Part shown: positions 17,787 to 58,585 of the stretch, in pieces
Layout of the letters: the number at the start of each line of letters is the position of its first letter
Position numbering within the stretch: the first letter of the stretch is position 1
Source: Gracilibacillus sp. YIM 98692
GTDB taxonomy: Bacteria > Bacillota > Bacilli > Bacillales > Amphibacillaceae
Length of the DNA stretch: 64,000 nucleotides
Reading direction: 5' to 3'
NCBI RefSeq assembly: GCF_010993965.1
Contig: NZ_WIXM01000009.1
Span: forward strand, 1 to 64,000
Program-made: the position numbers and the translations under genes
The notes under the pieces: generated by a model
Databases searched by the model: none
What the model saw: the letters and a program-made list of their open reading frames with translations, nothing else
What the model was told of the DNA's origin: nothing

Positions 17787-17841
17787 CAAAAAATAAAAAG
17801 GATAAAAATTATCACCTAATTTTTATCCTTTTTATTTTTTG
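17787..17841. terminator. Perfect 24-bp inverted repeat, bidirectional terminator
   Basis: Left arm 17787-17810 and right arm 17818-17841 are exact reverse complements around loop ATCACCT, with GGAT in the centre of each arm and A/T runs at the ends. It lies at the junction between the accessory island and the sugar locus. Confidence 0.75.
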
Positions 17842-17992: not shown

Positions 17993-18781
17993 ATGCAACT
18001 AGGGAACATATCTACTCCAACAGTTGACAGTTTTAAACGTTCAAAAGAAAGGGGTTTAGATTTTCTAGAGTTTTGTATAAACGAAGGCAACGATGTAGAG
18101 GCGTTTTATCAATCTCGCAACGATTTACTAAATTTCAAAAATGAATATGAAATCGATGTGCAATCAATTGGTCGATGGAAGTCATTGCGCGTAGATGAAA
18201 AAGGAAAAGTAATCGAAGAAGAATTAGAAAAATGTTTTCGGTTAATTGATGTTGCAAGTGAATTAGAATGTCCTAATTTTGTCAGTGGATGTAATTATGT
18301 AGAGGAACTATCCTACTTTGATAATTGTGCCGCTGCAATTGATTTCTTTTCAAAATTAATTGCCTATGGAAAACCTAAGGGTGTTAACGTATCTTCGTAT
18401 AATTGCCGCAAAGTTAATTTTGTCCATAATCCTGTTGCTTGGAAATTGGTGCACGGACATTTGGATGAGTTAGGAATAAAGTTTGACCCATCCCATAGCA
18501 GATATTTTGGCGGAGATTATTTGCAAGAGACGATGGATTGGGGGCACCGTTTTAACCATGTACATTTGAAGGGTTCGATGATCATAAGTGGTGAACGAGT
18601 TGACGACCCTCCGGCTGGACTTGATCAAACAGATTGGAAAACATTTATTTCCATGTTAAGAGTGAAAAATTACACGGGTGGATTAAGTATTGAACCGCAT
18701 TCTCCCGTATGGACAGGCGAATTAGGAGAACATGGAATAAATTACACAATTGATTATATGAAGGGATTACTATTTAAATGA
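17993..18781 (+). CDS. Sugar phosphate isomerase/epimerase (TIM barrel)
   Basis: A 262-residue xylose-isomerase-like TIM barrel. Metal-site elements are visible near the C-terminal half: KFDPSHSRYFGGDY, a His in FNHVHLKG and Glu in GLSIEPHSP. Such enzymes isomerise or epimerise free, phosphorylated or 3-keto sugars and often sit beside Gfo/Idh dehydrogenases, as here. AAAGGAG precedes ATG 17993. It heads a plus-strand group with the dehydrogenase copies and the broken GH43 gene. Its exact substrate is unknown. Confidence 0.8.
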   Translation: MQLGNISTPTVDSFKRSKERGLDFLEFCINEGNDVEAFYQSRNDLLNFKNEYEIDVQSIGRWKSLRVDEKGKVIEEELEKCFRLIDVASELECPNFVSGCNYVEELSYFDNCAAAIDFFSKLIAYGKPKGVNVSSYNCRKVNFVHNPVAWKLVHGHLDELGIKFDPSHSRYFGGDYLQETMDWGHRFNHVHLKGSMIISGERVDDPPAGLDQTDWKTFISMLRVKNYTGGLSIEPHSPVWTGELGEHGINYTIDYMKGLLFK

Positions 18782-19429: not shown

Positions 19430-19464
19430 TTAAGCTAATTAACAAATGATGGGAGAGAAAAGTA

Positions 19465-32773: not shown

Positions 32774-32819
32774 ATGCTTACAAAAAGTCTGACCAAGACA
32801 TTCTACTTTGGAGGTCATC

Positions 32820-35498
32820 ATGGAACAGTTAATTGATCAACTATACAAAAATGAAGGTAAAAATTATATTTTCCCTTTTTTGTGGATGAGGGGAGAAGAA
32901 GATGTTGTTATAAGAGAAGAGATTGATAGAATCTATCAATGTGGTATAAGAGCTCTCTGTGTGGAAGCGAGACCTCATCCGGACTTTGTAGGACCTGGCT
33001 GGTGGCATGATCTGGATATTGTAATGGAAGAGGCAAAGAAACGCAACATGCGTGTCTGGGTATTAGATGATGCTCATTTCCCAACTGGATATGCAAATGG
33101 TTTTATAAAAGAGAAATACCCTAATCGTAAAAAAACTTATATTAACTATAATCTTGTTGATGTATTAGGTGCTCAAAGCGAAGTAACTATTCATATAACG
33201 CCAATGTTAAAACCCAAAAACTCATGGTTAGATTTAGATAAAAAGATAGATATGGAAGAACAAAAAAACAATATATTAATCAGTGTAGTGGCTACAAGAA
33301 TAGTGAAGGATGGAATTATTAAAGAATCGGATGCAATTGATTTAACGCATCATGTAGCAGATGGTTTTATGACATGTTCTTTACCAGAAGGCGCTTGGAG
33401 GCTATTTGTCGTTTATGAAACGAAAACAGATGGTGGAAACCCGACCTATATAAATATGATAGATGAAGAGTCAGTGCATACACAAATTGAGGCTGTGTAT
33501 CAACCACATTACGAACGTTATAAAGAAGACTTTGGCCATACATTTGCAGGCTTTTTTTCTGATGAACCACAATTTGGAAATACAACCGGATTTAATTTTG
33601 ACGAATCCATTGGTCGCAAAGAGATGCCCTTACCTTGGAGTGAAGAAGCAATGATGATGGTAAGGAATGCGTTTGGTTCTAATTGGAGAGTCTACCTACC
33701 GTATTTATGGGTGAATACCGAAGAAATGAATCGCTGTGTGACTACAAGATATACGTATATGGATATTATTACGCGTTTATATGAAAAGAATTTTAGTGGC
33801 CAATTGGGACAATGGTGTGAGGAGCATGGTGTCGAATATATTGGCCATGTAATAGAGGACAATAATCAACACAGTAGGTTAGGAAGTGGCGCTGGTCATT
33901 TTTTTAGAGCATTAAAAGGTCAACATATGTCCGGGATTGATGTAATCGGTGGTCAAATTACATTTGGTGGCGCAGGTATAGAGCGAGATGGAATTTTTAA
34001 AGGGGATGGGGAATTCTATCATTACTCACTAGGGAAACTTGGATCTTCCTATGGACACCTTGATCCGAAGAAGCAAGGAAGAACGATGTGTGAACTATTT
34101 GGAGCTTATGGCTGGAAACTCGGAGTAAGAGATATGAGATATATTTTAGATCATTTGATCGTTCGCGGTATTAACCATCTCGTACCTCATGCCTTTTCTA
34201 TGCGCGAATATCCGGATATGGATTGTCCCCCGCACTTTTATGCAAAAGGGTATAATCCTCAGTTTAAACATTTTTCATATCTTATGCACTATGCGAATCG
34301 ATTATGTCATATTTTTAATGGTGGGACGCACTTTGCACCGGTAGCTATTTTATATCATGGTGAAAGTGAATGGACCGGTAACTATATGAAAATGCAGAAA
34401 CCAGCTAGAACTCTTACAGAGAATCAAATTGACTTTGATTTTGTACCAATCGATATTTTGAACGATTTAGAGTCTTATAATGGTTCATTAGAAAAAGATA
34501 AATTGAAAATAAATGGGGAATCATTTGCTTGTTTGGTTATTCCATACAGTCAATATATAACGAAAGAGTTAGCCGCATTTATTAGAGATGCCATAGATTT
34601 AGAGATAATATTTGTCGATGATCGACCTGAAAATATATCTAATGAGTTAGACCAAGATGAGGTGAAAGTATTTCTAGAAGCGACAGAAAGATGTAAGGTA
34701 GTGCCATTAGAAGATTTAGCGAATGAACTTAGAACGCTTGATATTTATGATATTAATCTGAAGAAACCTTTTAAAGACTTAACTTACTATCATTATTTTA
34801 AAGAAAATAACATCTATATGTTTCAAAATGAGTCAGCGCATGAGACATTTAGTGGGGATATAGAATTATCAATTGAAGAGCCTGCTGTTATATACCAGGC
34901 ATTAGATAACAAATTTGAAAAAATAAATGTTAAAAAAGATAATGGAAAATCGATGATTCATTTAGAGTTAAAACCCTATGAATCATGTGTAGTGTTTGAA
35001 AAAGTAGAAGAGCTACCTAAACTATCAAACTATGTACCAATGTCTACTAAATTGGCAGCATGTAAGCAGCAAAATGATTTGTCTGCACAATGGAACTATT
35101 CTTTGGTAAAGAACAAAGAATATCCAAATTTCAATGAAATCAGGACAATGGAGACATTGGTTCCTGTTTCAAAAGAGCATCCGACCTTTGCTGGAATTAT
35201 TAAATATGAGAAAAGTTTTAAATTGGATGAAGTACCAGAACAAGGGCTATTAGCTTTCGAATATATCTATGAAGCTGCGGATTTGTGGATCAATGATCAA
35301 TATGTTGGTAGGAAAATTTGTCCGCCATATGTGTTTGAGATCGCGGACTATGTGAAAAAGGGAAGAAACACGATTCGGTTAGAAGTAGCAACAACGTTAG
35401 ATAGAGATCAATTTAATCAGCCATCACCTCCGTTCATCTTAAATCATAATCCGATTGATCCAACAGGGATGTTTGGAAGAGTTACTTTGTATAGATAA
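32820..35498 (+). CDS. Large GH106-like glycoside hydrolase (alpha-L-rhamnosidase type)
   Basis: An 892-residue cytoplasmic enzyme without signal peptide. The N-terminal TIM barrel matches GH106-related proteins: FPFLWMRGEEDVVIREEIDR, then RVWVLDDAHFPTGYANGFI, GFFSDEPQFGN with a candidate catalytic Glu, and EYIGHVIEDNNQ. A C-terminal jelly-roll (residues about 780-892) resembles a sugar-binding module (ADLWINDQYVGRK). ATG 32820 follows TGGAGG; the frame is open to TTG 32808. Being downstream of the ABC transporter it probably acts on the imported glycoside. Family membership is a judgement by pattern; rhamnose as substrate is inferred. Confidence 0.68.
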   Translation: MEQLIDQLYKNEGKNYIFPFLWMRGEEDVVIREEIDRIYQCGIRALCVEARPHPDFVGPGWWHDLDIVMEEAKKRNMRVWVLDDAHFPTGYANGFIKEKYPNRKKTYINYNLVDVLGAQSEVTIHITPMLKPKNSWLDLDKKIDMEEQKNNILISVVATRIVKDGIIKESDAIDLTHHVADGFMTCSLPEGAWRLFVVYETKTDGGNPTYINMIDEESVHTQIEAVYQPHYERYKEDFGHTFAGFFSDEPQFGNTTGFNFDESIGRKEMPLPWSEEAMMMVRNAFGSNWRVYLPYLWVNTEEMNRCVTTRYTYMDIITRLYEKNFSGQLGQWCEEHGVEYIGHVIEDNNQHSRLGSGAGHFFRALKGQHMSGIDVIGGQITFGGAGIERDGIFKGDGEFYHYSLGKLGSSYGHLDPKKQGRTMCELFGAYGWKLGVRDMRYILDHLIVRGINHLVPHAFSMREYPDMDCPPHFYAKGYNPQFKHFSYLMHYANRLCHIFNGGTHFAPVAILYHGESEWTGNYMKMQKPARTLTENQIDFDFVPIDILNDLESYNGSLEKDKLKINGESFACLVIPYSQYITKELAAFIRDAIDLEIIFVDDRPENISNELDQDEVKVFLEATERCKVVPLEDLANELRTLDIYDINLKKPFKDLTYYHYFKENNIYMFQNESAHETFSGDIELSIEEPAVIYQALDNKFEKINVKKDNGKSMIHLELKPYESCVVFEKVEELPKLSNYVPMSTKLAACKQQNDLSAQWNYSLVKNKEYPNFNEIRTMETLVPVSKEHPTFAGIIKYEKSFKLDEVPEQGLLAFEYIYEAADLWINDQYVGRKICPPYVFEIADYVKKGRNTIRLEVATTLDRDQFNQPSPPFILNHNPIDPTGMFGRVTLYR

Positions 35499-39130: not shown

Positions 39131-40624
39131 GTGGAAAAGTTAAAAGTGTCAAAGAATAATAGATATTTCACCTATCAAGACGGGAAGCCTTTTATCTGGT
39201 TATCAGATACCGTTTGGACTATCGCTCAAAGATTAAAGTGGGACGATGTAGAATTTCTAATGCAAAAACGTAAATCACAAGGATTCACAGTCCTTCAAAT
39301 CGTGGCGCTTGATCCGGAACAGGACAAGGAAATAAGAAATCCAGCTGGAGAAAAGGCTTTAATAAAGGATGATCTGAGCACACCAAATGAAGCATACTTT
39401 AAGTATTTAGATTGGGTACTGGATAAAGCAGAGGAGTATGGATTTTATGTACTGTTTCTTCCGGTTTGGGGGGAGCTTGTGGTTGGTCATAATTGGATGA
39501 ATGAGTTTTCGGAAAAAATTGTTACGGAAGAAAATGCATACCTTTATGGAAAGTGGATTGGAAACCGATATAAAGGTCGAAAAAATATAATTTGGTGTCT
39601 TGGAGGTGATCGACAGCCGATTCATCTTGGTGTAGATTACAGGGATGTTTGGAGGAAAATGGCTGAAGGAATTGCAAAAGGCGTTCTGAATAGGGACTTA
39701 TTATATAATGTTGAAGACCCAGACTGGCAAAAGCTTCTTATGACGTATCATACTTGCTTTGAGCGAGAGACAGGCGAATGTTCCACGATGTCCTATTGGA
39801 CGGATAAAGAAGCTTGGATATCGTTTATTATGATTCAATCGGGACATGGGCTAGAACCAAAAAACTATGAGTTAGTAAAAAAAGAGTATGAAAGAGAAAA
39901 CACTATGCCAGTTTTTGATGGAGAACCAGCCTATGAACAAATGCCAACATCATGGCCACCTTCTTCTTCGATGGATTACCATGGAGATTGGATGGTACGA
40001 AAGCGCGCATACTGGAGTTTATTCGCGGGTTCCTTTGGTCACACCTATGGCCATTCATCCATTTGGCCAATGATATCAGAAAAAGAGAGAGAGAGCTTTA
40101 GAAAGTATTCTTGGTTTGAAGCTTTAGATCACCCTGGTGCATGGCAAATCAAAATACTCCGAGATTTTCTTGAGTCAAGAAATATAAGCCAATGTATACC
40201 TAGTCAGGAGATATTAATAAGACAAAATGAAAAGCTTGAAAACATACAGGATGAACATAACCAAGCTTGTATAGAAAAAGATGGCATGTTTGCTTGTGTC
40301 TATTTCCCATCAGGTGGGGAAGAAGTCATTGATATAAGCAAGTTAAATAAAAGGCAATTACAAATGTATTGGTTTAACCCGAGAGATGGAAACTGCTATT
40401 CTCAAGAAAATGTGATTTCTAAAGAAGCAATCAACTTGTTAGAAAGAGTAAAGACAGATGAACATCGTACAACGATTCAAATAAAGACACCAACTCGTGG
40501 AAAAGAAGAAGATTGGATCTGTGTAATTGAACCCAATGATACGAATAAAGTTCTTCCTGGGAAATCACAAGTTTATGGAGAGATGCTAGTACCGAAAGAA
40601 GTTAAAAAAGTTTTTGTGTGGTAG
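39131..40624 (+). CDS. GH140-like (DUF4038) glycoside hydrolase, apiosidase type
   Basis: A 497-residue TIM-barrel enzyme. The start (YFTYQDGKPFIWLSDTVW) and the C-terminal beta domain are typical of DUF4038 proteins, which include GH140 apiosidases. The acid/base candidate is Asp160 in LGGDRQP and the nucleophile Glu265 in DGEPAYE, matching the positions in the family. GTG 39131 follows AGAAGG. It sits 22 bp after the GH3 gene, so they act on the same molecule. Apiose specificity is inferred from family only; other furanosides are possible. Confidence 0.78.
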   Translation: MEKLKVSKNNRYFTYQDGKPFIWLSDTVWTIAQRLKWDDVEFLMQKRKSQGFTVLQIVALDPEQDKEIRNPAGEKALIKDDLSTPNEAYFKYLDWVLDKAEEYGFYVLFLPVWGELVVGHNWMNEFSEKIVTEENAYLYGKWIGNRYKGRKNIIWCLGGDRQPIHLGVDYRDVWRKMAEGIAKGVLNRDLLYNVEDPDWQKLLMTYHTCFERETGECSTMSYWTDKEAWISFIMIQSGHGLEPKNYELVKKEYERENTMPVFDGEPAYEQMPTSWPPSSSMDYHGDWMVRKRAYWSLFAGSFGHTYGHSSIWPMISEKERESFRKYSWFEALDHPGAWQIKILRDFLESRNISQCIPSQEILIRQNEKLENIQDEHNQACIEKDGMFACVYFPSGGEEVIDISKLNKRQLQMYWFNPRDGNCYSQENVISKEAINLLERVKTDEHRTTIQIKTPTRGKEEDWICVIEPNDTNKVLPGKSQVYGEMLVPKEVKKVFVW

Positions 40625-41242: not shown

Positions 41243-41689
41243 ATTTTCATCTAGTTTGGGATTTAAGAAATATACTTAGAGACTTTATACGACCCGTTCT
41301 CTTCCTGTTTGCACTTCTTTTAAGAACCTCTATGGATTATCCAAAGAAAAACTAGAAAAACAAGTGCTAATTTTACGGATAATTGAAGCACAAGTGAGTA
41401 TTTAAATAATAACTGTTTACTAAATTTGTATGGATAATCTGCTAGAGGGCTTGGTTAAGTATTTTTATAAAATAATCAGGTATTATGAAACGATTATAAA
41501 TTCAGAAAAAAGTTAGGTTAAAAATACTATGCTTATATTTATTCTTTATTAAAGCGTTTTAAGAAATATAGCTAATTACTTAACAATTTTAGGATAAAAA
41601 AACAAAAGGAATTCATAAGAAATTATCATAAAATTTAATATATAAGTAAAAACTTTGAGTTATTCAAAGTGAGAATAGGAGAGGTTTTA
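41243..41689. other. Intergenic region, possible deletion scar
   Basis: About 440 bp with no supported gene, between the truncated reductase and the next dehydrogenase. Short stretches look like decayed coding sequence but no family is readable. GGAGAGG at the end serves the next gene. Confidence 0.4.
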
Positions 41690-42742
41690 ATGAATGTTCA
41701 ATTAGGGATCATAGGATTTGGTGGTATGGGGAAATGGCATGCAGATAATGCTATCCGTGTGGAACATGTTGAAATCGTAGCAGCTTGTGACATAAAAGAA
41801 CAAAGGCGTAAGGAATCTAGTGAGCGGGGGTTAAAAACCTATGAAAACGTAGAAGCATTGCTAGATGATAAAGATGTAAATACGGTATTAATCTCGGTAC
41901 CTAACCATTTGCATAAGGAAATAGTAATAAAAGCTGCAAACGCAGGTAAGCATATTATTTGTGAAAAGCCTGTTGCACTGACCGTAAGTGAGCTGGACGA
42001 AATGATAGATGCAACAGAAAAAAATAATGTTATTTTCACCGTACATCAAAATCGACGTTGGGATCGTGACTTTCAGATTGTGAAAAAAGCATATGATGAA
42101 GGATTAATTGGTGATATTTTTACTATTGAATCTAAGTTGCATACGGCTAATGGAAGAATACACGAATGGCACCTTTACAAGGAATATGGTGGAGGTATGA
42201 TGTATGATTGGGGAGTTCATTTAATTGATCAGTTTCTTCATATGATGGAGGGAGCTAAGTTAATATCCGTATTTGCTGATATTAAAAGTATCATTAACGA
42301 TGAGGTGGATGACTACTTCAAGGTAATTATGAAATTCGATAATGGGATTACAGCACACGCGGAATTGGGAACGTATGTCCTGAAATATCAGCCTAGATGG
42401 TTAGCAGCAGGAAATAGAGGAACAATGGTTATCAATTCATTTGCATGTGATGGGGAAATTATGAGAACTAGTAAGTTGTTAAATAAACTACCTGCACAAA
42501 TAGCTGAAACTGTTGCTGGTCCTACACGACAATTTGCTCCTCAACCTGCAGGAGTACTCTATTCAGATCCACTACCAACAGTTGAGATAGAATGGACAGA
42601 CTTTTATAAAAATATTGTCGAAGTATTAAATGGTAACTCAGAATTAAAAATAAAGTTAACTGAAGTAAGAAGAGTACTAGCTGTAATGGAAGCAGCCTTT
42701 GAGTCTAGCAGAATAAATAAATCTATTTCATTTGAAAGATAA
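41690..42742 (+). CDS. Gfo/Idh/MocA-family oxidoreductase
   Basis: A 350-residue NAD(P)-dependent sugar dehydrogenase. The Rossmann motif is GIIGFGGMGKWHA, the signature HIICEKPVALTVSE lies near residues 86-99, and the catalytic region has GGGMMYDWGVHLIDQFLHM with the conserved Asp and His. ATG 41690 follows AGGAGAGG; the GTG at 41669 lacks a site. It has its own terminator. It is only distantly similar to the dehydrogenases at 19465 and 46787 and may handle another sugar released by the hydrolases. Confidence 0.87.
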   Translation: MNVQLGIIGFGGMGKWHADNAIRVEHVEIVAACDIKEQRRKESSERGLKTYENVEALLDDKDVNTVLISVPNHLHKEIVIKAANAGKHIICEKPVALTVSELDEMIDATEKNNVIFTVHQNRRWDRDFQIVKKAYDEGLIGDIFTIESKLHTANGRIHEWHLYKEYGGGMMYDWGVHLIDQFLHMMEGAKLISVFADIKSIINDEVDDYFKVIMKFDNGITAHAELGTYVLKYQPRWLAAGNRGTMVINSFACDGEIMRTSKLLNKLPAQIAETVAGPTRQFAPQPAGVLYSDPLPTVEIEWTDFYKNIVEVLNGNSELKIKLTEVRRVLAVMEAAFESSRINKSISFER

Positions 42743-42955: not shown

Positions 42956-45460
42956 ATGAACAAACTTCCCCAATATGATAAAGATTCAAAAATTGTAAAT
43001 ATCTCGGTGATTAATAATGAAAATAAACTTGAAAATGCCCATAGAGAAATTGAATTAATTTATGTGATCAAAGGTAATTTACAAGTTAATCTCAATAATA
43101 ATAACTATCAGTTAAATAAATCTGATTTTCTATTAATCAATTCAAATAAATTACATTCTATTATATCGAACAGTGATAACTTATTTGTATTACTACATTT
43201 TAACTATTATGAATTAAGCTTACTATTAGAACAAAAGAATCTTATGTTCTCTTGTAATTCATCTGAAAAACAACATTCTTTTGATCAGAAATTAAGGTTG
43301 GCTATTGAAGAGTTGTTATCAGTATTTGTACAACAAAGAGTTGATATACAAGTCGAATTTCTTGAAAAGGCTTATAAATTAATTTCAATTCTTAAAAATT
43401 ATTTAATAAATAGAAACCAATTAGAAGTGAAAAACTCAATAACAAGTAAAGGACAGAGTGATAGGTTAACAGAAATAATAGAATATATTCAAACTAACTA
43501 TCGAGAACCATTATCATTGGATGAAGTTGCTGGTTTTCATTTTTTATCTAGTCCTTATCTATCTAAAATATTTAAGAAGCAAACTGGAAAGACCTTTTCT
43601 AAATACTTAAATGAAATACGTCTTGCACATGCAGTAGACGATTTATTAAGCTCTAATGAAACCATTACTCGTATTGCTTTAGATAACGGGTTTCCAAACC
43701 TAGCAGCGTTTAATAGAATTTTTTATGAATATTATAATATGAAACCGAGTGAATATAGAAAGAAAAATTCTAAATTAGTAAAAAAAGAAGAAAATCAAGT
43801 GACTAAAGAATTGACAAAAAAAAGTGATAAAGCAGAAAAAGAATTGCGTGATTACTTAAATACCAACACAGAACTTAACGAAACTAGTATTGACACCCCA
43901 GAGTTTATAAAACCAGAGATTGTTAAGGTTGGAGAAAGTAAGACTCTTTATAAATATTGGAATAAGTTGATAAATTTAGGCTATGCAAAAGATATTTTAA
44001 ATTCAGATATGCAGGAGCAAGTTAAACTTTTGCAGAATGATATTGGATTTAAATTTGCTAGGTTTTGGGGGATATTTAGTGATGACATGCATGTAGAAGA
44101 TGAATATGATTATACAATCACTTATAATTTTTCTAGTATTAATAAGTTAATAGATTTTCTTCTAAATAATAATATCAAACCCTTTATTGAACTAGGACCA
44201 AAACCTAAAATTATATCAAAATCAACTGAAAAGACATTAATTATCCAATCATGTAGAGAAAGGACTTTAAAAGAATGGACCAACCTTATAAGGGCTTTCT
44301 TACATCATTGTAGGGAAAGATACGGTATTGAAGAAGTAGAGACATGGTATTTTGAGATTTGGAATAAGCATAGTGATCCGTTAAGGACTTCTAATAAAGA
44401 AAACGTTAATAGTAACCTTCAGTTTAGCCATAGTGAATTTAAAGATTATTTTAATCTGTTTCATACATTGAAAGAAAATATTAACGAGATTGTTCCTTCA
44501 GCTAAAGTTGGAGGGTGTGGTTTGCCTATGGATTTAGATGATGATAGACTCTCCTTTTTTTTAGAGAAATGGAAATTGGAGGAATTACAGCCGGATTTTC
44601 TTTCCGTATATATCTACCCGATAGAGGTAGATTGGGGAAACAATCGACTTCCTATAAAAAATATGCAATCTGCTAATCCTGATTTTGTAAAGAATAAGCT
44701 TGTTATGATAAGGAAGGCTCTTAAAAAGGCAGGGCTTGTTGATCTTGAGCTTAATATAACGGAATGGAACATTTCAATATCAAATAGAGATTACCTAAAT
44801 GATAGTTGCTTTAAGGCCTCTTATATAGTTAAAAACTTGGTTGACAATGTGAATCAACATCAGATAAATATGGTAGGATATTGGCTGCTCTCAGATATTT
44901 TTAGTGATTTCAGAGATTCCAAAAATGTTCTGCATGGTGGCGCTGGATTACTTACTAAAAGTGGAATAAAGAAACCAAGTTACCATGCTTTTAGTTTGAT
45001 GAACCAATTAGGTGATTCAATAGTTGGTAAGGGTAAGAATTATATTATAACTAAAAAGTTCGACAATAGATACCAAGTTCTCTTCTTTAATTATAAGCAT
45101 TTTAACTACGCCTATTACTTGCATCCCGAGGCAAGTGCAGGTGTTAATGAACAATACGATATCTTTGAGGATGCAGAACCTTTAAACCTTTCTCTAGAAA
45201 TACAGGGCGTATCAGATGGGAAGTACCGTGTTAAAGAGATTGTTCAAAATCGCCTCCATGGAAGTGTCCTAGATGAATGGTTAAATTTTGGAGCAGTTTC
45301 TGACATGAAAAGAGACGAAGTTGAATATTTGAAACAGATCTGTACACCTTACATGAAGGTAACTTATACTTTTGTGAAAAAAAACAGCGTAGTATTGCAT
45401 GCCCAACTTCAACCCCATGAAGTAAGGTTATATGAACTTAACTTGTTAATAGGTGAGTAA
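42956..45460 (+). CDS. AraC-type regulator fused to a GH39-like domain lacking the acid/base Glu
   Basis: An 834-residue fusion. Residues about 10-90 form a cupin sensor (ELIYVIKGNLQVNLNNNNY), residues about 165-270 an AraC double HTH (LDEVAGFHFLSSPYLSKIFK; ALDNGFPNLAAFNRIFYEYY), and residues about 330-830 a GH39 beta-xylosidase-like barrel and beta domain. The nucleophile motif ITEWNIS (Glu603) is kept, but the acid/base motif WNEP reads WNKHSD, with Lys471. It has no signal peptide. I infer a cytoplasmic regulator that binds a xyloside-like ligand without cleaving it. ATG 42956 follows GGGAGAG. It stands alone between two terminators and may control regions 2 and 3. Confidence 0.85.
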   Translation: MNKLPQYDKDSKIVNISVINNENKLENAHREIELIYVIKGNLQVNLNNNNYQLNKSDFLLINSNKLHSIISNSDNLFVLLHFNYYELSLLLEQKNLMFSCNSSEKQHSFDQKLRLAIEELLSVFVQQRVDIQVEFLEKAYKLISILKNYLINRNQLEVKNSITSKGQSDRLTEIIEYIQTNYREPLSLDEVAGFHFLSSPYLSKIFKKQTGKTFSKYLNEIRLAHAVDDLLSSNETITRIALDNGFPNLAAFNRIFYEYYNMKPSEYRKKNSKLVKKEENQVTKELTKKSDKAEKELRDYLNTNTELNETSIDTPEFIKPEIVKVGESKTLYKYWNKLINLGYAKDILNSDMQEQVKLLQNDIGFKFARFWGIFSDDMHVEDEYDYTITYNFSSINKLIDFLLNNNIKPFIELGPKPKIISKSTEKTLIIQSCRERTLKEWTNLIRAFLHHCRERYGIEEVETWYFEIWNKHSDPLRTSNKENVNSNLQFSHSEFKDYFNLFHTLKENINEIVPSAKVGGCGLPMDLDDDRLSFFLEKWKLEELQPDFLSVYIYPIEVDWGNNRLPIKNMQSANPDFVKNKLVMIRKALKKAGLVDLELNITEWNISISNRDYLNDSCFKASYIVKNLVDNVNQHQINMVGYWLLSDIFSDFRDSKNVLHGGAGLLTKSGIKKPSYHAFSLMNQLGDSIVGKGKNYIITKKFDNRYQVLFFNYKHFNYAYYLHPEASAGVNEQYDIFEDAEPLNLSLEIQGVSDGKYRVKEIVQNRLHGSVLDEWLNFGAVSDMKRDEVEYLKQICTPYMKVTYTFVKKNSVVLHAQLQPHEVRLYELNLLIGE

Positions 45461-45490: not shown

Positions 45491-45534
45491 AACCCTGGTA
45501 GTAGGAATTATAGTTAATTCCTACTACCAGGGTT
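45491..45534 (+). terminator. Strong terminator of the AraC-GH39 gene
   Basis: Perfect 20-bp stem, left arm 45491-45510 (AACCCTGGTAGTAGGAATTA) and right arm 45515-45534, loop TAGT, followed by CTTTATTT. Confidence 0.88.
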
Positions 45535-45806
45535 CTTTATTTCTCACGTATTATTGGACAGTATACCAAATCAGCTGGGAAAGAGTTAAATACCCCTACT
45601 GATAGGAATCACACTTTATTGGTTAATAATAATATGTAGATATTTAATCTTCGTGAGTGGGATTTATTAAAGGATATTGAAAGTGACGAAAATTTACAGG
45701 TATAGAGTTAATTATTGAAAAGGAATAAAAATGAATACAGGTTAAAATTAATTATGTAAGCGAAATCAATATAACTGGATATATTTGAAATAGGAGGAGT
45801 TGAACT
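45535..45806. other. Upstream region of the C-glycoside operon
   Basis: About 270 bp with no supported gene. A short broken frame (FNLREWDLLKDIESDENLQV) may be a gene scrap of unknown family. The promoter of the operon should be here but no clear -35/-10 pair stands out. AGGAGG lies at the end. Confidence 0.4.
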
Positions 45807-46712
45807 ATGCAACTGGGTTTCAATAGTGCCATTCTAGCTGAATGTACCTTTGAAGAAGTAATAGAATATGCGGCAGAAAATGGTTTTTCCTGTGTGGAAC
45901 TATGTGCATGGCCAAAAGGTAAAGCAGAGCGAAAATATGCTGGAGTAACACATATCGATGTAGACAATTTAGATGTCGAATACATCAAAAATTATACAGA
46001 GGATAGAGGCGTAGCCATTTCGGGCATTGCTTATTACCCTAATCCACTAGACGGTAATCAAGAAAAAAGTAACTATTATGTAGATCATATTAAGAAATGT
46101 ATTGAAGCTGCATCTAAGCTTGATGTCAATCTAGTAAACACATTTATTGGGAGAGATCAGCGTAAAACGATTGATGAGAACTTACAGACAATGGTTAAGG
46201 TGTGGAAACCACTTATTGATTTCGCGGAAGAAAAAGGTGTGAAAATTGCCATCGAAAACTGTCCGATGTTATTTACAAATGATGAGTGGCCAGGTGGGCA
46301 AAACTTAATGACGACACCAGCGATTTTTAGAAAAGTGTTTGAATTGGTGCCGAATGAGAACTTCGGTTTAAACTTTGATCCATCCCACTTTATTTGGCAA
46401 CAAATGGACTATATTAAGCCGTTATATGAATTTAAAGATCGTATGTTCCATATCCACTTTAAGGATATCAAAGTCTATGAAGATAAGTTAGATGATGTTG
46501 GCATTATGGCTACCCCATTGGAATATTTAGCACCAAAACTACCTGGCTTAGGCGATGTGAATTGGGCGCGTTATGTATCCGCGTTGACCGATATTGGCTA
46601 CCGTGGAGCCGCAGTTATTGAAGTGGAAGACAAAGCATTTGAAGATTCGCTTCAGTCCAAAAAGGATTCAATTAAAATTAGTAAAAACTATCTGAGTCAA
46701 TTTTTCGTGTGA
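45807..46712 (+). CDS. Sugar isomerase/epimerase (TIM barrel) of the C-glycoside operon
   Basis: A 301-residue xylose-isomerase-like barrel. The metal site is visible: Glu in IAIENCPM, Asp and His in LNFDPSHFIWQ, His in FHIHFKDIK and Glu in AAVIEVED. Such proteins act on 3-keto sugars or related ketoses, next to Gfo/Idh enzymes. AGGAGG precedes ATG 45807. It is the first gene of a four-gene operon with a DgpA-like oxidase and the two deglycosidase-like subunits. Likely it processes the keto sugar after release. Confidence 0.83.
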   Translation: MQLGFNSAILAECTFEEVIEYAAENGFSCVELCAWPKGKAERKYAGVTHIDVDNLDVEYIKNYTEDRGVAISGIAYYPNPLDGNQEKSNYYVDHIKKCIEAASKLDVNLVNTFIGRDQRKTIDENLQTMVKVWKPLIDFAEEKGVKIAIENCPMLFTNDEWPGGQNLMTTPAIFRKVFELVPNENFGLNFDPSHFIWQQMDYIKPLYEFKDRMFHIHFKDIKVYEDKLDDVGIMATPLEYLAPKLPGLGDVNWARYVSALTDIGYRGAAVIEVEDKAFEDSLQSKKDSIKISKNYLSQFFV

Positions 46713-46786: not shown

Positions 46787-47902
46787 ATGAGTAAATTAAG
46801 AATTGGTATCATCGGTTGTGGTGGAATCGCAAATAACAAACACTTTCCGGCATTATCTAGTTTTAAAGATGAATGTGAAATGGTAGCATTTTGTGACATT
46901 GTTGAAGAACGTGCAGTAACAGCAGCGAAAAAGTATGGTACGGAAGACGCAAAGGTGTACACAGATTATAACGAACTTTTAAAAGATAAATCTATAGATA
47001 TTGTTCATGTATTAACGCCAAACGTGTCTCATAGTCCGATTACGGTTGCTGCTTTTGAAGCTGGTAAACACGTCATGTGTGAAAAACCAATGGCACACAA
47101 CACTGAAGCAGCGCAAGCAATGATGAATGCTTGGAAAAAATCCGGTAAAAAATTCACCGTTGCTTACCAAAACCGTTTCCGTGAAGAAGTACAATCACTT
47201 CATAAAGCTTGCGAAAAAGATGAGCTTGGCGATATTTATTTTGCAAAAGCACATGCTGTACGTCGCCGTGCCGTACCAACTTGGGGTGTATTCCCGGATA
47301 AATCTCAACAAGGTGGTGGTCCATTAATCGATATTGGTACCCACGCACTTGATATTACATTATGGCTAATGGATAATTACAAACCTGTTTCTGTTTCAGG
47401 TTCTGTATTTCATAAATTAGGTAACCTGCCAGAAGCAACAGAAGGAAACATGTTTGGTCCTTGGGATCCTGAAACATTTGAAGTAGAAGATTCAGCATTT
47501 GGTTACATTAAAATGGAAAATGGCGCAACAATTTTCTTAGAATCCTCTTGGGCATTAAATGTAGTAGAGTCAAAAGAAGCTGCAACAACGCTTTGTGGTA
47601 CAAAATCAGGAGCACATATCAATGCAGGGATGAGCTATCAGGAGAATGAGCTAATTTATAACTCTGCTCATAATGGTATGTTAGTAGCAGAGAAAAACTC
47701 TCCTTTAGGAAACATCGCATTCTTTGAAGGTGGATCAAACAAACCAGAAGTGTTAGAAGCAAAACAATGGTTAGATGCAGTTAAGAATGATAAAGAACCA
47801 TTAGTGAAACCAGAACAAGCATTTGTAGTAACAAAGATCTTAGATGCGATTTATACTGCGGCTGAAACAGGGAAAGAAGTAGTACTTAGCGATCGTGCTT
47901 AA
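46787..47902 (+). CDS. Gfo/Idh/MocA oxidoreductase (DgpA-like glycoside 3-oxidase candidate)
   Basis: A 371-residue NAD-type oxidoreductase with Rossmann motif GIIGCGGIANNKHFPA, signature VMCEKPMAHN near residues 96-105 and GGGPLIDIGTHALDITLWLM in the substrate domain. In known C-glycoside pathways (DgpA of the puerarin-degrading gut bacterium) a member of this family oxidises the sugar C3-OH, which makes the C-C glycosidic bond labile. The gene order here supports that role. GGAGTG precedes ATG 46787; the next gene starts 27 bp after its stop. The specific substrate is not readable. Confidence 0.82.
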   Translation: MSKLRIGIIGCGGIANNKHFPALSSFKDECEMVAFCDIVEERAVTAAKKYGTEDAKVYTDYNELLKDKSIDIVHVLTPNVSHSPITVAAFEAGKHVMCEKPMAHNTEAAQAMMNAWKKSGKKFTVAYQNRFREEVQSLHKACEKDELGDIYFAKAHAVRRRAVPTWGVFPDKSQQGGGPLIDIGTHALDITLWLMDNYKPVSVSGSVFHKLGNLPEATEGNMFGPWDPETFEVEDSAFGYIKMENGATIFLESSWALNVVESKEAATTLCGTKSGAHINAGMSYQENELIYNSAHNGMLVAEKNSPLGNIAFFEGGSNKPEVLEAKQWLDAVKNDKEPLVKPEQAFVVTKILDAIYTAAETGKEVVLSDRA

Positions 47903-47929: not shown

Positions 47930-48370
47930 ATGGCAGTGTCATTAAAAATGCCTTTTGTCGATGCAGTTGTCGATGATAGTTTAAAGCAAACGTATGTTAA
48001 CGGGGAGAAAATAGGATATGAATTTCAGATTCGTTTGAGTAATTATCGAGGACATTATCTATCTTGTATTGAAGAACTTTCCTTTACAGTTGATGGTAAT
48101 AAGATAGATGCAACTAATTTTACGTTCACACTTAACGATAAAGAATTTACGGTTAGTCAATTACCAAATCTCATTTCCGAATTTTGGAGAGTAACAGACG
48201 CAGCTACGATTAAAGTTTATACGCCTGGAGGTGTAGAACCTGGTGAACATCATATAAGCCTAACACTCATGCTACGTATTCCTTATATGCCGATTCCAGG
48301 AAACGCTGAAGGATTGAACTATGCATTATTAGATGCGTGTGGTAGCAAAACATTAACAGTGAAAGAGTAA
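47930..48370 (+). CDS. C-glycoside deglycosidase beta-subunit-like protein (DgpB/CarB type)
   Basis: A 146-residue all-beta protein matching the small subunit of C-glycoside deglycosidases (DUF6379/CGDB family): NYRGHYLSCIEELSFTVDG, then FTLNDKEFTVSQLPNL, a Trp in SEFWRVTD and PGGVEPGEHHISLTL, ending RIPYMPIPG. In DgpB-DgpC and CarB-CarC this subunit packs on the TIM-barrel subunit encoded next to it. AAGGAGGAG precedes ATG 47930. The next gene follows after 19 bp. This subunit is the most specific marker of the pathway. Confidence 0.8.
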   Translation: MAVSLKMPFVDAVVDDSLKQTYVNGEKIGYEFQIRLSNYRGHYLSCIEELSFTVDGNKIDATNFTFTLNDKEFTVSQLPNLISEFWRVTDAATIKVYTPGGVEPGEHHISLTLMLRIPYMPIPGNAEGLNYALLDACGSKTLTVKE

Positions 48371-48389: not shown

Positions 48390-49355
48390 ATGAGTGATAT
48401 AAAATTAGGTGTTTCATTATTTAGTTTTTCAACGGACTATGTCAAAGGTATTCTCTCTTTAGAAGACTGTATCCGTTCGGCAGCTGAAATGGGTGCAGAA
48501 GGATTTGAACTAGTAGGAACTACCATGTTAAGATCTTATCCTTATGCTACTGATAAAGTCTTAGGTGAAATAAAGTCAATGACAGATGCATATGGTGTCG
48601 ATTTTGTTTCTTACGGCGCAAATACAGATCGAGGCTTAAGATCTGATCGAGATTTGACTGAAGAAGAAATGTTACAATCAACGATTATTGATTTGAAGAC
48701 AGCAAATAAATTAGGCTGTAAGATGATGCGGGCACAATATTTATTGTCACCATCAGCCATAGGGAAACTAGCTCCCTATGCAGAAGCTTATGGTGTAAAA
48801 GTTGGAGTGGAAATCCATAATCCGGAATATCCGACATCTCCAAAGATGCAAGAGTACTTGGAGGTTATTGAGAAATCAGGATCAGAATACATTGGATTTG
48901 TACCTGACTTTGGATGTTTTGCGACAAGACCGAATAAAATTTATTGGGATCAAGCGCTTGAAAATGGTGCACCTTTAGAACTGTTAGAATTAGCAGCTAA
49001 ATTACGTTATGACGGTGTTCCAAGGCAGGAAGCAGCAAAACGCTTAAAGGATGCAGGGGCAAATGGCCCTGTTATGGGAGCCTTTAATGGTATGTATGGT
49101 TTTGTACAATTCTCACATGAACCAGATTTTGAGGGGCTAAAGAAAATCATGCCTCACGTGATTTACTTCCATGGGAAATTTCATTATATCGATGAAAACC
49201 TGGAGGAAGCGAGCATTCCATACGGAGATATTCTACCAATTATTCAGGAGTCTAACTTTAACGGTTATATCATGTCAGAGTATGAAGCGTCAGATGATGC
49301 ACTTGGAATGACCAAGCGTCATTTACAAATGCAACGAAACATATTAGGAAACTAG
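48390..49355 (+). CDS. C-glycoside deglycosidase alpha-subunit-like TIM barrel (DgpC/CarC type)
   Basis: A 321-residue xylose-isomerase-like barrel. Metal ligands are visible: Glu in KVGVEIHNPEYP (near 141), Asp in VPDFGC (near 173), His in YFHGKFHYID (near 261) and Glu in YIMSEYEASDD (near 297). In the family it catalyses beta-elimination that splits the C-C bond between aglycone and 3-keto sugar. Proximity to the small subunit supports this over a generic isomerase. AAAGGAGG precedes ATG 48390; a terminator follows, closing the operon. Confidence 0.8.
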   Translation: MSDIKLGVSLFSFSTDYVKGILSLEDCIRSAAEMGAEGFELVGTTMLRSYPYATDKVLGEIKSMTDAYGVDFVSYGANTDRGLRSDRDLTEEEMLQSTIIDLKTANKLGCKMMRAQYLLSPSAIGKLAPYAEAYGVKVGVEIHNPEYPTSPKMQEYLEVIEKSGSEYIGFVPDFGCFATRPNKIYWDQALENGAPLELLELAAKLRYDGVPRQEAAKRLKDAGANGPVMGAFNGMYGFVQFSHEPDFEGLKKIMPHVIYFHGKFHYIDENLEEASIPYGDILPIIQESNFNGYIMSEYEASDDALGMTKRHLQMQRNILGN

Positions 49356-50757: not shown

Positions 50758-51696
50758 ATGAAATATCCATATGAGAGTTTGGTAATGACGGAAGAAATAC
50801 CAATGTTTATGTTAATGACTAGTGTAAAATATATTGCATTACACTGGCACGATCGAATTGAATTTGTTTTTGTGTTACAAGGAAAAGTTAATACAATTGT
50901 TGGCCAAGAGCAGCATTTGCTAAAGAAAAATGATCTTATACTTATTAACAGTAATGAAGTTCATGGAGTTGAATCAACGGACGAGAATAAATTATTAGTT
51001 CTTCAAATCCCAATATCCTTTATAAAAAAATACTATAGCAATATTGAGGAAGTAGTGTTCCATTGTCAATCTTCTGCGTCTGACCATCAAAAGGATTTAA
51101 ACGTTATTCGGGAGTTAATTGTTCGCCTAATGCTAACAATAAAATCTAAAGGTGAGGGGTTCGATATAAAAAGTCATTCGCTATTACTAGACATTATCTA
51201 TAACCTCATTTCAAAATATAAAGTAGAAAAATACACATACATTAATCAAAATAAAGACATTGAACGATTGACAAGAATCACTAATTATATTCAGGAAAAC
51301 TATATGCATGGTGTTACTCTAAATGAAATAGCCGAGCTAGAGAACTTAACTGCTCCTTATTTATCACGGTATTTTCACCAGCACATAGGACAATCCTTTG
51401 TGAAATATTTAAATAGTGTACGGTTGGAACATGCCGTAAGATACATAACTGAAACAGACTGGCCTATTATTCAAATTGCTATGGAATCAGGCTTTACTAA
51501 TTTGAATACCTTCCATAAATTATTCAAAGATACATTTAAAACAACTCCTTACAAATACCGGATTAAACATCAAATCAACCCCATGAATACTACCCGATTA
51601 GAATATAGTGGCATTGAAAATTATCAATTTAACGAGGAGTATGATGTTGAATTGTTACGAGATTACTTAAATACTTTACAGAATATTAAAAATTGA
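50758..51696 (+). CDS. AraC-family regulator
   Basis: A 312-residue regulator. The N-terminal cupin (HWHDRIEFVFVLQGKVNTIV; LILINSNEVHGV) is followed by an AraC double HTH (LNEIAELENLTAPYLSRYFH; AMESGFTNLNTFHKLFKD). A 45-residue tail ends ELLRDYLNTLQNIKN. The same RDYLNT string lies at the linker between HTH and GH39 in the fusion protein at 42956, so this gene looks like that family without the GH39 domain. GGGAGGC precedes ATG 50758. It probably controls the flanking C-glycoside or aromatic operon. Confidence 0.88.
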   Translation: MKYPYESLVMTEEIPMFMLMTSVKYIALHWHDRIEFVFVLQGKVNTIVGQEQHLLKKNDLILINSNEVHGVESTDENKLLVLQIPISFIKKYYSNIEEVVFHCQSSASDHQKDLNVIRELIVRLMLTIKSKGEGFDIKSHSLLLDIIYNLISKYKVEKYTYINQNKDIERLTRITNYIQENYMHGVTLNEIAELENLTAPYLSRYFHQHIGQSFVKYLNSVRLEHAVRYITETDWPIIQIAMESGFTNLNTFHKLFKDTFKTTPYKYRIKHQINPMNTTRLEYSGIENYQFNEEYDVELLRDYLNTLQNIKN

Positions 51697-51771: not shown

Positions 51772-51942
51772 CTATTAAGTTTGAAAAATCACCTTGTAAT
51801 AGAAGCGAAGGATATATCTTTCTAGTAAGTTGTTTCATAGAAAGATTATTTTCAGTAGAGAGTGAAGGGCTCATCATTCTAGAGGTGAAAAACGAATAAT
51901 AAGGGTGCTAATGCGGTTTATTTGTGCATAAGGAGGTGTGCA

Positions 51943-52848
51943 ATGAAGTTTGTTACTTTTTATAACCCTGATGGACAAATTCGAGCAGGATGGCAGGATG
52001 GAGAGAGAGTAGTCGATATGTATCAGGTATCGGGTGGAAGATTACCCGATTGTATGGAAGATCTTGTTGCTAACTACCACACCTATCTACCAATCATAGA
52101 AGAGATAATTGCTAGCGATTATTCAACCATTGCAAAAGACGAGGTTCGAATAACAGCCCCATTGCAAAAGCCTAACAGCTTTCGGGATTTTGTTGCCTTT
52201 GAGACACATGTAAAAAATGCAACGAAACGAAATGGTGATAAGGTAGCACCTGAATGGTATGAGATGCCAATCTTTTATTTTTCTAATACCAATACAATGA
52301 GGGGACCGGAGGAGAAGGTGAAACGCCCATCTAAATGTTCGTGCCTTGATTATGAGTTAGAACTAGCCTGCGTCATTGGCAAGCAAGGTACTAACATTAA
52401 GGCAGAAGAAGCGGAAGATTATATTTTTGGATACACCATTTTAAACGATTGGTCAGCACGAGACTTACAAATGAAAGAAATGAAAGTGCTCCTTGGTCCT
52501 GCGAAAGGAAAAGATTTTGCTACTTCCATTGGACCTTACATTGCAACGAAAGATGAACTTGTATCTTACAAAAGCAATAGTCGGTTTGACTTGGAGATGA
52601 CGGCAAGAGTAAATGGAAAAACTTTATCCAAGGGCAACTTTAAAGACATTTACTACAGCTTCGGGGATATGATTGAACGTGCTTCTGAGGATGTCACATT
52701 ATATCCAGGAGATATTATTGGGTCTGGCACAGTTGGATTCGGCTGTATTATGGAGCATGGCCCGGAAGTACACTGCTGGCTTGAACCAGGAGATGAAGTA
52801 GAACTAACCATTACTGGGCTCGGATCTTTAAAAAATGAAATAGTATAG
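51943..52848 (+). CDS. Fumarylacetoacetate-hydrolase-fold enzyme
   Basis: A 301-residue protein of the FAH superfamily, which includes hydrolases, hydratases and decarboxylases of ring-cleavage products. The metal ligands are in DYELELACVIG (two Glu) and NDWSARDLQ (Asp). The N-terminal domain (FVTFYNPDGQIRAGWQDG) is as in the longer FAH-type members. ATG 51943 has a perfect AAGGAGGTG site; the upstream in-frame ATG has none. First gene of the aromatic cluster. A decarboxylase/hydratase role after meta cleavage or a true C-C hydrolase role are both open. Confidence 0.87.
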   Translation: MKFVTFYNPDGQIRAGWQDGERVVDMYQVSGGRLPDCMEDLVANYHTYLPIIEEIIASDYSTIAKDEVRITAPLQKPNSFRDFVAFETHVKNATKRNGDKVAPEWYEMPIFYFSNTNTMRGPEEKVKRPSKCSCLDYELELACVIGKQGTNIKAEEAEDYIFGYTILNDWSARDLQMKEMKVLLGPAKGKDFATSIGPYIATKDELVSYKSNSRFDLEMTARVNGKTLSKGNFKDIYYSFGDMIERASEDVTLYPGDIIGSGTVGFGCIMEHGPEVHCWLEPGDEVELTITGLGSLKNEIV

Positions 52849-52991
52849 GTGGAAAAAACTACTAGCGAGTTTAGAGTCAATCCATTCCATCTATAATCCA
52901 CTTATAAAAACGCTTTATTTAGGGTGTTTATCAAAAATCACTGATTAGATCGAGATGAATTTTTAAAGATGACTTACATGGAGGGGTTATT

Positions 52992-53930
52992 ATGCCAAAA
53001 AGAAATCATTTTATTTCACAACTTGCTCACGTGGAGATTTACACACCACACTTAGAAGAAACAGTAAAGTTCTATATTGATACAATCGGATTACAAGAGT
53101 CAGATAGAAAAGATAATTCTGTTTACTTACGAGCTTGGGGTGAGTTTTTTCATCATAGCTTAAAAATTACAGAAGGTCCGGAAAAAGGGTTGGGTCATAT
53201 CGGTTGGAGAGCTGAAAGCGAAGAAGACTTACTAGAAGCTGTAGAGTTTATTGAAGAGTTAGGCTGTGGTGAGGGATGGATAGAAGGAGATATTGGACAT
53301 GGTCGCGCTTATCAATTCCGTTCACCTGACGGACACTTAGAGGAAATTTTTTGGGAAGTAGAATTAGCAGCAATTCCTGAAGAGGAAAAAAGTAGATGGA
53401 GAAGTCGTCCACAAAAACATCCAGGTGGTGGGTTTTCAGTTCGTCGCTTAGATCACGTGACACTTTGGACTAGTGATGTACAACGACATCGTGAATTTTA
53501 TCAAAAATTAGGGTTTAAGCATAATGAGGCTATTTTGTTAGATGAACCTGTAAATAAAGAGATCGGTGGTCTTCTTGCTGTTACAAGTCTTTCACATGAA
53601 GTAGCTCTGTTTAGTCTTCCTCCTAATCACCCGAATGAGAGCAATATGAATCATATATGTTATGCGGTGGAAAATCGTGAAGAAGTTCTTGATGCAGCAG
53701 ATTTCATTAAAGAGCATGGTTACAAATTGGATATGAAGCCATCGAAGCATGCAGTGGGGGAAGCTTTCTACTTATATGCACTTGACCCGGGTGGTAACCG
53801 ATTTGAAATATATGCTGGCTCACCACTTTATTTTGCACCGGATTATGGACCAGTAACTTGGAGAGTATCGGAAAATCCAAACGATGCTTGGTCTGAGTCA
53901 AATATTCTAGTTGGAGATAAAAAAGATTAA
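52992..53930 (+). CDS. Extradiol ring-cleavage dioxygenase (VOC, type I)
   Basis: A 312-residue two-domain vicinal-oxygen-chelate protein of the catechol 2,3-dioxygenase class. The catalytic C-terminal domain has the iron ligands His in VRRLDHVTLW, His in MNHICYAV and Glu in GNRFEIYAG; His and Tyr of the active site lie in HAVGEAFYLYALDPGG. It opens a catecholic ring next to the hydroxyls. GGAGGGG precedes ATG 52992. The alpha/beta hydrolase follows after 35 bp, matching a meta-cleavage pathway. Confidence 0.9.
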   Translation: MPKRNHFISQLAHVEIYTPHLEETVKFYIDTIGLQESDRKDNSVYLRAWGEFFHHSLKITEGPEKGLGHIGWRAESEEDLLEAVEFIEELGCGEGWIEGDIGHGRAYQFRSPDGHLEEIFWEVELAAIPEEEKSRWRSRPQKHPGGGFSVRRLDHVTLWTSDVQRHREFYQKLGFKHNEAILLDEPVNKEIGGLLAVTSLSHEVALFSLPPNHPNESNMNHICYAVENREEVLDAADFIKEHGYKLDMKPSKHAVGEAFYLYALDPGGNRFEIYAGSPLYFAPDYGPVTWRVSENPNDAWSESNILVGDKKD

Positions 53931-53965
53931 TTTGTACAAACGAAGTAAACAGAGGAGAGATTTAC

Positions 53966-55072: not shown

Positions 55073-55084
55073 TAGATTAATAAG

Positions 55085-55116
55085 AAATAGAGGATTTTAT
55101 TTTCAAGATCCTCTAT
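55085..55116 (+). terminator. Hairpin after the C-C hydrolase gene
   Basis: Perfect 10-bp stem AATAGAGGAT / ATCCTCTATT with a 12-nt loop, followed by CTCTTCTG; a weak terminator or processing site within the cluster. Confidence 0.6.
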
Positions 55117-55177
55117 TCTCTTCTGAATTTTAGAGTATTTAAACGTTTTTTCATAAATAGATTAGGAGGTATTTCAA

Positions 55178-56314: not shown

Positions 56315-56373
56315 TCTATTTTGTTTTAGAAATTTGACTAGATAGATATCAGCATGGAAAGGGAGTTCCGCTT

Positions 56374-57126: not shown

Positions 57127-57186
57127 TAGTTTTGGATTCGGATAAGGACATTACCAATATCAATAATTGAGAAAGGATAGAGGTTT

Positions 57187-57882: not shown

Positions 57883-57912
57883 AAACCACAATAAAAAAAA
57901 GAGGATGAATGT

Positions 57913-58554: not shown

Positions 58555-58585
58555 AGAGTTAACTAAATAAAAAGGAGGGAACCGT

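Follow-up and report, generated by a model that had tools for sequence, protein, structure and literature searches.

Why does a bacterial transcription factor carry a glycosidase barrel with a lysine in place of one of its two catalytic glutamates? The question is raised by a gene of Gracilibacillus sp. YIM 98692, located in a 64,000-nucleotide stretch of contig NZ_WIXM01000009.1 (positions 1 to 64,000), hereafter the window. The gene, at 42956..45460 on the plus strand, encodes P0001, an 834-residue AraC/XylS regulator with a C-terminal degenerate GH39 domain. An operon for C-glycoside deglycosidase (CGD), which includes its β subunit (CGDB), sits directly downstream. We propose, with a probability of roughly two in three, that P0001 is an AraC-family regulator that uses the disarmed GH39 barrel as its ligand domain, binds a palindrome, and switches on the 3-oxidation and deglycosylation of aryl glycosides.

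The GH39 domain and its pocket

Translation of 42956-45460 on the plus strand gives a single, uninterrupted frame of 834 codons, for which the earliest start called is a TTG at 42950. Pfam delineates a cupin/AraC_binding domain at residues 27–84 (43034..43207, plus strand), a double helix-turn-helix at residues 178–269 (43487..43762, plus strand), and a GH39 domain at residues 322–807 (43919..45376, plus strand). The double helix-turn-helix is that of the AraC/XylS family: HTH_AraC (PF00165) matches two stretches, the best at 178–219, and HTH_18 (PF12833) covers 197–269 with 71.2 bits. Glyco_hydro_39 (PF01229) scores 188.7 bits against a cut-off of 26 (E = 2.3e-55), and P0001 is its sole match in the genome at E values up to 0.001. 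An AlphaFold2 model computed from a 50-row alignment has a mean predicted local distance difference test (pLDDT) score of 83.7 and a predicted template modeling score of 0.64. The top match of the model in the PDB is the GH39 xylosidase 2bs9_A, with an E value of 2.2e-37 and a target template modeling score of 0.83. Within the GH39 domain, the pLDDT drops below 50 only in the loop 475–488, just past Lys471.

The catalytic columns of P0001 were aligned to solved GH39 xylosidases and to GH39 enzymes from related genomes. The nucleophile motif reads NIT-E603-WNIS and retains the catalytic residue, Glu603 (codon 44762..44764, plus strand). The acid/base motif reads FEIWN-K471-HSD, with Lys471 (codon 44366..44368, plus strand) at the position of the Glu found in intact GH39 enzymes. 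No alternative Glu is present in the acid/base column of P0001, and Glu467 is found in intact enzymes as well. A sequence-only reading of this DNA had described an 834-residue cupin/AraC/GH39 protein with an intact nucleophile and Lys471 at the acid/base site. The translation, the Pfam matches and the alignment bear this description out.

The fusion of AraC and GH39 parts was traced in a census of 438 open reading frames of at least 400 residues. Among these, 130 match P0001 and 107 are AraC-GH39 fusions by rule, of which 98 remain after nine duplicates are dropped. The tree has 102 rows, comprising fusions, P0001 and six references (five GH39 enzymes without an AraC part and one partial fusion), and was computed with the catalytic columns excluded and three fragments omitted (L107, one of L069, and L126; L numbers are our labels for loci). 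It was built quickly, and among its several long branches are two that meet.

P0001 falls in a clade of 48 of the 102 rows, itself included, with a Shimodaira–Hasegawa-like approximate likelihood ratio (SH-aLRT) support of 99. The acid/base Glu is missing in 47 of these 48 rows. The column is occupied by Pro in 15 rows, Asp in 12, Asn and Gly in five each, Lys and Thr in three each, and His, Ser, Ala, Glu and Arg in one each. The nucleophile column contains Glu in 46 rows, Gln in one and Leu in one. Even the 16-row subclade of P0001 is mixed at the acid/base site, with Pro in 12 rows, Asn in two and Lys in two. The 35 other fusions have Glu (34 rows) or Gln (one row) at the acid/base site and Glu in all rows at the nucleophile site; 34 keep both residues. 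A third group of 14 rows shows a double loss, with Pro (eight), Ser (five) or Thr (one) at the acid/base site and Ser (12) or Asn (two) at the nucleophile site.

On the evidence of this alignment, loss of the acid/base Glu is a trait of the clade, and Lys itself is not conserved. Since the residues in this column vary while the nucleophile Glu stays, Lys471 is one among many residues at a released position. The sequence-only reading had asked whether Lys or another non-acid residue is conserved here. The alignment shows a clade-wide loss of Glu but no conservation of Lys; because the column varies within the clade, Lys471 is rejected as a conserved functional residue. Instead, Trp371, Lys416 and, less strictly, Tyr552 are fixed.

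These positions emerge from a comparison of the pocket in 50 clade rows with that in 41 other fusions and five GH39 enzymes. Position 371 (codon 44066..44068, plus strand) is Trp in 48 of the 50 clade rows and His in all five enzymes and all 41 other fusions; no fusion of the tree outside the clade has Trp there. Position 416 (codon 44201..44203, plus strand) is Lys in 49 clade rows and Met in the five enzymes and in the 39 other fusions with a residue in this column. Position 552 (codon 44609..44611, plus strand) is Tyr in 40 clade rows; the enzymes and the remaining fusions have His. Glu603 is present in 48 clade rows. Persisting residues further include Arg369 (49 rows), Glu412 (46), Trp464 (50), Trp643 (48) and Asp647 (50), while position 554 is Tyr in 42 rows and Phe in eight. 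Trp371 together with Lys or Arg at 416, a signature picked after the clade had been inspected, marks P0001 and 46 of the 48 clade rows in the tree, the exceptions being L056 and L064. L179 and the second open reading frame of L177 are AraC-GH39 relatives in CGDB-positive genomes that do not have Trp371; they are paralogues with other pockets.

GH39 β-xylosidases (2bs9, 1px8) share the fold and the nucleophile motif with P0001, but their acid/base residue and two His are replaced in it. The Asn that precedes the acid/base residue in these enzymes is kept in P0001 and in only seven of the 50 clade rows, P0001 included. By motif similarity, we take residues 371, 470, 471 and 603 to correspond to His91, Asn181, Glu182 and Glu299 of α-L-iduronidase, another GH39 enzyme. 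In the iduronidase, O2 of the sugar is touched by His91, Asn181 and the nucleophile Glu299, and O1 by Glu182, according to a table in PMC10794756. The comparison of the pockets and of these residues suggests that the acid/base half of the GH39 site is replaced in the clade and the nucleophile half is kept.

The kept nucleophile could have a chemical purpose. A slow reaction with activated or 3-oxo aryl glycosides might trap a glycosyl-Glu603 species that serves as the signal, a covalent idea first put forward in the sequence-only reading. The presence of Glu in 46 of 48 clade rows would suit such a mechanism, as would PDB entry 2bfg, which reads WNAP at the acid/base motif in our alignment and is titled as containing covalently bound xylose. 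However, the presumed counterparts of the O2-contacting His91 and Asn181 are replaced in most clade rows, a C-glycoside has no leaving group, and the nucleophile is Gln or Leu in two clade rows. Because the sugar-holding His and Asn are replaced too, a long-lived covalent xylosyl complex becomes less likely, and we consider trapping highly improbable. A Schiff base between Lys416 and a 3-oxo sugar was considered separately; it is weakened by the Arg that L161, L162 and L177 carry at this position.

The barrel could also be a structural remnant without a binding role, with ligand sensing left to the N-terminal cupin, as happens in AraC itself. P0001 does possess the AraC_binding domain, and AraC proteins without a GH39 part are found in comparable settings: a 312-residue stand-alone AraC, a relative of the N-terminal half of P0001, is encoded in the window at 50758-51696, and in L182, a CGDB genome without a fusion, a similar 335-residue stand-alone AraC lies within the 14.8-kb stretch of CGDB. 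A barrel without a role should decay evenly. Instead, Glu603, Arg369, Asp647, Trp464, Trp371 and Lys416 are each near-fixed (48 to 50 of the 50 rows), in Bacilli and Clostridia alike. Since conservation is selective, a role-less barrel is unlikely. The GH39 pocket as a sensor is thus supported by the selective conservation. The view that the domain is more likely a sensor than a working hydrolase gains from the clade-wide acid/base loss, the changed pocket and a locus of aryl-glycoside type.

Association with C-glycoside deglycosidase genes

The CGD operon begins with a xylose isomerase-like TIM barrel protein (45807..46712, plus strand). It is followed by a Gfo/Idh/MocA oxidoreductase (46787..47902, plus strand), which stays below every NCBIfam cut-off and probably has a DgpA-like role in glycoside oxidation. 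CGDB (47930..48370, plus strand) matches PF19906 with 122.4 bits (E = 9.8e-36) and is the single match of this family in the genome. It adjoins a homologue of the CGD α subunit (48390..49355, plus strand; E = 2e-113 to 7bvr_A), and the two form the gene pair characteristic of C-glycoside deglycosidases. The nearest solved relatives of the α homologue are 7bvr_A and 7xrf_A, and 7bvr_B carries the name DgpB. The α homologue contains the motifs GVEIHNPE, PDFGCF, FHGKFHY and SEYEA, matching 7bvr_A in the alignment; these motifs may hold the metal-binding Glu, Asp, His and Glu described for AgCGD2 (PMC8563793).

Sixteen neighbourhoods were compared, consisting of 15 ortholog loci and the window from 28001 to 60000; some of the loci are close kin or come from the same genome. 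Besides the fusion, the commonest gene clusters are Gfo/Idh (15 neighbourhoods), the TIM barrel protein c2 (14), CGDB (12), CGD α (12) and an MFS_2 transporter (11). Among the 13 clusters common to at least five of the 16 neighbourhoods, no regulator apart from the fusion is present. Xyloside degradation was considered as the regulated pathway, and GH3, GH43, apiosidase-like and GH106-like genes are encoded in the window. It is not favoured, because CGD genes dominate the common neighbourhood. Xylose, the glycone suggested in the sequence-only reading, finds no indication in the neighbourhood either, the closest characterised relatives of which act on C-glucosides.

CGD genes follow the clade. 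A CGD β profile built from the ortholog loci finds a match in the stretch around the fusion for 30 of the 48 clade rows and for none of the 35 other fusions. Among stretches of at least 10 kb, the numbers are 28 of 44 and 0 of 27 (Fisher p = 9e-9, uncorrected for kinship). At the genome level, PF19906 was used instead. Eleven genomes were checked from the 16 loci where a clade fusion has no CGDB in its stretch, and CGDB is located elsewhere in 10 of them, the genome of L064 having none. In three genomes of other fusions, PF19906 finds no CGDB.

Two families of genomes were surveyed, in both of which the fusion was scored among the best four to five candidates per genome. The first family, that of L032 (Neobacillus cucumis), comprises 193 genomes. 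CGDB is present in 15 of them, and a clade-type fusion in exactly the same 15; in another 11 genomes, every fusion is of a different type, and none of these genomes contains CGDB. The clade type is defined here by a score above 1050 bits, with six of the 15 proteins read by residue and the others assigned by score; nine of the 11 were read. A group scoring around 660 bits keeps both catalytic Glu in all nine proteins read, six of which share a genome with a clade-type fusion. In the second family, that of L048 (Anaerobium), 250 genomes were sampled. CGDB (E up to 1e-10) is found in 19, two of them weak. With the clade type defined by Trp371 and Lys or Arg at 416, all 12 genomes with a clade-type fusion have CGDB, and all eight with only other fusions lack it. 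Combined, the 443 genomes contain CGDB in 27 of 27 cases with a clade-type fusion and in 0 of 19 where all fusions are of other types. One genome of the L048 family, G453, has 14 CGDB matches in 3.9 Mb and at least four high-scoring AraC-GH39 fusions, of which the two that were read are of the clade type.

A candidate operator and the proposed mechanism

A 31-bp palindrome, AGRTTAAAAAT-N9-ATTTTTAAYCT, was derived from words common to genes of eight clusters, that of the window among them. Three copies lie in the window. One, with two mismatches (17799..17829), precedes the TIM-barrel gene at 17993; a second, also with two mismatches (41515..41545), precedes the Gfo/Idh/MocA oxidoreductase gene immediately upstream of the fusion gene (41669..42742, plus strand); and a third, with three mismatches (45620..45650), precedes the CGD operon. 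Only 0.03 sites are expected in the window by chance, and none of 100 shuffles reaches three. The site at 17799 lies outside the stretch used for motif derivation. The product of the gene behind it is an ortholog of a frequent target, with 77% identity to the c2 protein of L032, and the L032 c2 gene is likewise preceded by a palindrome site.

In the 15 ortholog loci and the window from 28001 to 60000, the palindrome occurs 45 times with at most three mismatches, in 42 distinct sequences and in all 16 stretches. All 45 sites are intergenic under a rule tolerating 60 bases inside a called start, and 36 are centred 125–200 bp ahead of the next start codon. At the same stringency, no site is found in three Markov shuffles, nor in 27 control loci (491 kb) of similar G+C content (0.354 versus 0.358 in the ortholog loci). 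Twenty-nine other clade loci are mostly records from Lachnospiraceae and other Clostridia. There, a variant half-site, AGNGCAAAAAT, derived from the loci where it was counted, gives seven sites in six loci, six of them intergenic, in five loci; it is absent from the controls and shuffles.

The window encodes further regulators, namely the stand-alone AraC at 50758 and a two-component pair (22383-25756), and the palindrome might belong to a different regulator while the fusion controls something else at the locus. However, palindrome sites accompany the fusion clade in Bacilli and, with an altered half-site, at some loci of Clostridia; they are missing at the loci of other fusions, and the shared clusters offer no second regulator. 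This makes such an arrangement improbable.

In the mechanism we favour, a GH39 β-xylosidase-like barrel would have become a ligand-binding domain after losing the acid/base half of the catalytic apparatus. P0001 would bind the palindrome before the CGD operon and two further operons. A glycoside, or its 3-oxo form, bound in the barrel would cause P0001 to activate these operons, whose products would carry out 3-oxidation and deglycosylation of aryl glycosides, either C-glycosides (flavone C-glucosides, for example) or the corresponding O-glycosides. The steps are not equally secure. The link between regulator and regulon is well supported by the genomic sequences. P0001 probably binds the palindrome sites. 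The enzymes under its control suggest a C-glycoside or 3-oxo glycoside as ligand, and activation, as opposed to repression, is assumed by analogy with the AraC family.

A more specific version is tentative, and we would sooner doubt it than rely on it. Glu603 and the new residues Trp371, Lys416 and Tyr552 may hold a C-glycoside or the 3-oxo intermediate and leave it intact, and a single clade with a single palindrome type may govern the breakdown of C-glycosides in organisms ranging from Bacilli to Lachnospiraceae of the gut. In that case, a glycosidase barrel would have been turned into a sensor of glycosides resistant to glycosidases. The favoured mechanism, if right, would provide a regulator clade, a defined operator and a testable class of ligands for the pathway by which aglycones of dietary and medicinal C-glycosides are released. 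The natural series of fusions with an intact site, with the acid/base residue lost and with both residues lost would then show an enzyme domain becoming a sensor.

Several observations weigh against the favoured mechanism. CGDB is absent from the stretch in 18 of the 48 clade rows (16 loci), and no clade-type fusion was seen among the best four to five candidates in seven of the 34 CGDB-positive genomes, so CGD genes can be run by other regulation. The clade-CGD association has essentially one evolutionary origin, and the co-occurrence counts are therefore not independent; tree contrasts of acid/base loss against CGD offer only two or three independent comparisons, which have no power and show nothing. 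Acid/base loss is also found without CGD, in L166 (Ile), L167 (Thr), L168 and L170 (Ser in both) and in the 14-row double-loss clade, for which only short stretches are available. Within the clade, L056 and L064, the two tree rows without Trp371, also have no nucleophile, L075 and L175 carry Glu at the acid/base site, and L162, of the clade type by Trp371 and Arg416, has Asp as its nucleophile. As for the palindrome, it was mostly counted in the loci from which it was derived. With four mismatches it appears five times in the controls and 3.3 times on average in shuffles, the whole genome contains four sites (three in the window) versus two for a backwards control pattern, and the unchanged palindrome is absent from the 29 other clade loci at up to three mismatches.

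In the seven CGDB genomes without a clade-type fusion, all from the L048 family, no fusion lies near CGDB, and one stretch contains a stand-alone AraC. Among L165–L168 and L170, which are AraC-GH39 fusions without CGD, the nucleophile is lost in L165 (Gln) and L170 (Asp). Because these five have lost one or both catalytic residues, erosion of the enzyme site in AraC-GH39 fusions looks recurrent across the sequences compared.

Related systems and other genes of the window

AraC-GH39 fusions that retain both Glu (WNEP...TEWN) have the same domain order and a similar length as P0001, and ten of them in alignment A2 are 28–31% identical to it. They differ from the P0001 clade in keeping the acid/base residue, His371 and Met416 and in having no CGD β nearby (0 of 35). 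β-Klotho and similar pseudoglycosidases use a glycosidase fold that has lost catalytic residues for binding; they are cell-surface receptor partners, unlike the transcription factor P0001. An AraC-like domain at the N terminus of some GH39 xylosidases has been noted (PMC8543862), and apart from this remark the literature matches listed contain nothing on point about AraC-GH39 fusions or pseudoenzyme sensors.

AryK of Staphylococcus aureus is an AraC/XylS protein represented by the NCBIfam model NF047455. P0001 scores 233.7 bits, below the cut-off of 850 bits for an AryK equivalog. L013, a member of the double-loss clade, matches the model from end to end (501.7 bits, also below 850). L013 and L118–L130 encode fusions of about 780 residues that have lost both catalytic Glu; unlike the P0001 clade, this clade has Ser or Asn in place of the nucleophile. 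The full-length match of L013 suggests that a dead GH39 domain may be present in AryK as well. In the main text of the AryK paper (PMC3922988), the words glycos-, hydrolase, domain and xylosidase are absent.

The dgp, dfg and car clusters for C-glycoside deglycosylation contain CGD α and β together with Gfo/Idh, as does the operon downstream of P0001. No transcription regulator is described for them in passages of PMC8563793 and PMC12724307, whose main texts do not contain the words AraC or transcription. A regulator of CGD clusters was likewise absent among the papers listed from an open-licence library, which leaves most subscription journals outside.

A terminator-like stem of 20 pairs (45491..45534, plus strand) separates the regulator gene from the CGD operon; the region has two terminator-like sites, with 1.3 expected from shuffles. 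Promoter-like sites are fewer than in shuffles (18 versus 25.0), and no promoter is therefore claimed. The sequence TGTAAGCGAAATCA at 45755..45768 on the plus strand, which has no chance control, is cre-like by comparison with the CcpA consensus. Intergenic cre-like sites, again without a chance control, are present in most ortholog loci and would fit catabolite repression.

The stand-alone AraC at 50758-51696, whose kinship with the N-terminal half of P0001 shows in a match of 109.7 bits, scores 139.5 bits with the AryK model. It is followed at 51922-59767 by genes for an FAA hydrolase, an extradiol-dioxygenase-like protein, an α/β hydrolase, an FAD-binding hydroxylase-type protein, a cyclase-like protein, a CoA transferase and a thiolase. 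The extradiol-dioxygenase-like protein reaches 269.7 bits against catechol 2,3-dioxygenase, for which the cut-off is 320. A role of these genes in the degradation of aromatic aglycones is possible.

The palindrome has one more putative target operon, which begins with the TIM barrel protein at 17993..18781 (plus strand) and continues with a Gfo/Idh protein (19465-20544) and a GH43 protein (20598-21581); the two-component system follows, the whole spanning 17993-25756. Between this operon and the fusion gene lie a GH106 rhamnosidase-like gene (32808-35498) and an apiosidase-like gene (39131-40624), near a GH3 gene. Apiosyl or rhamnosyl glycosides could be additional substrates of the locus.

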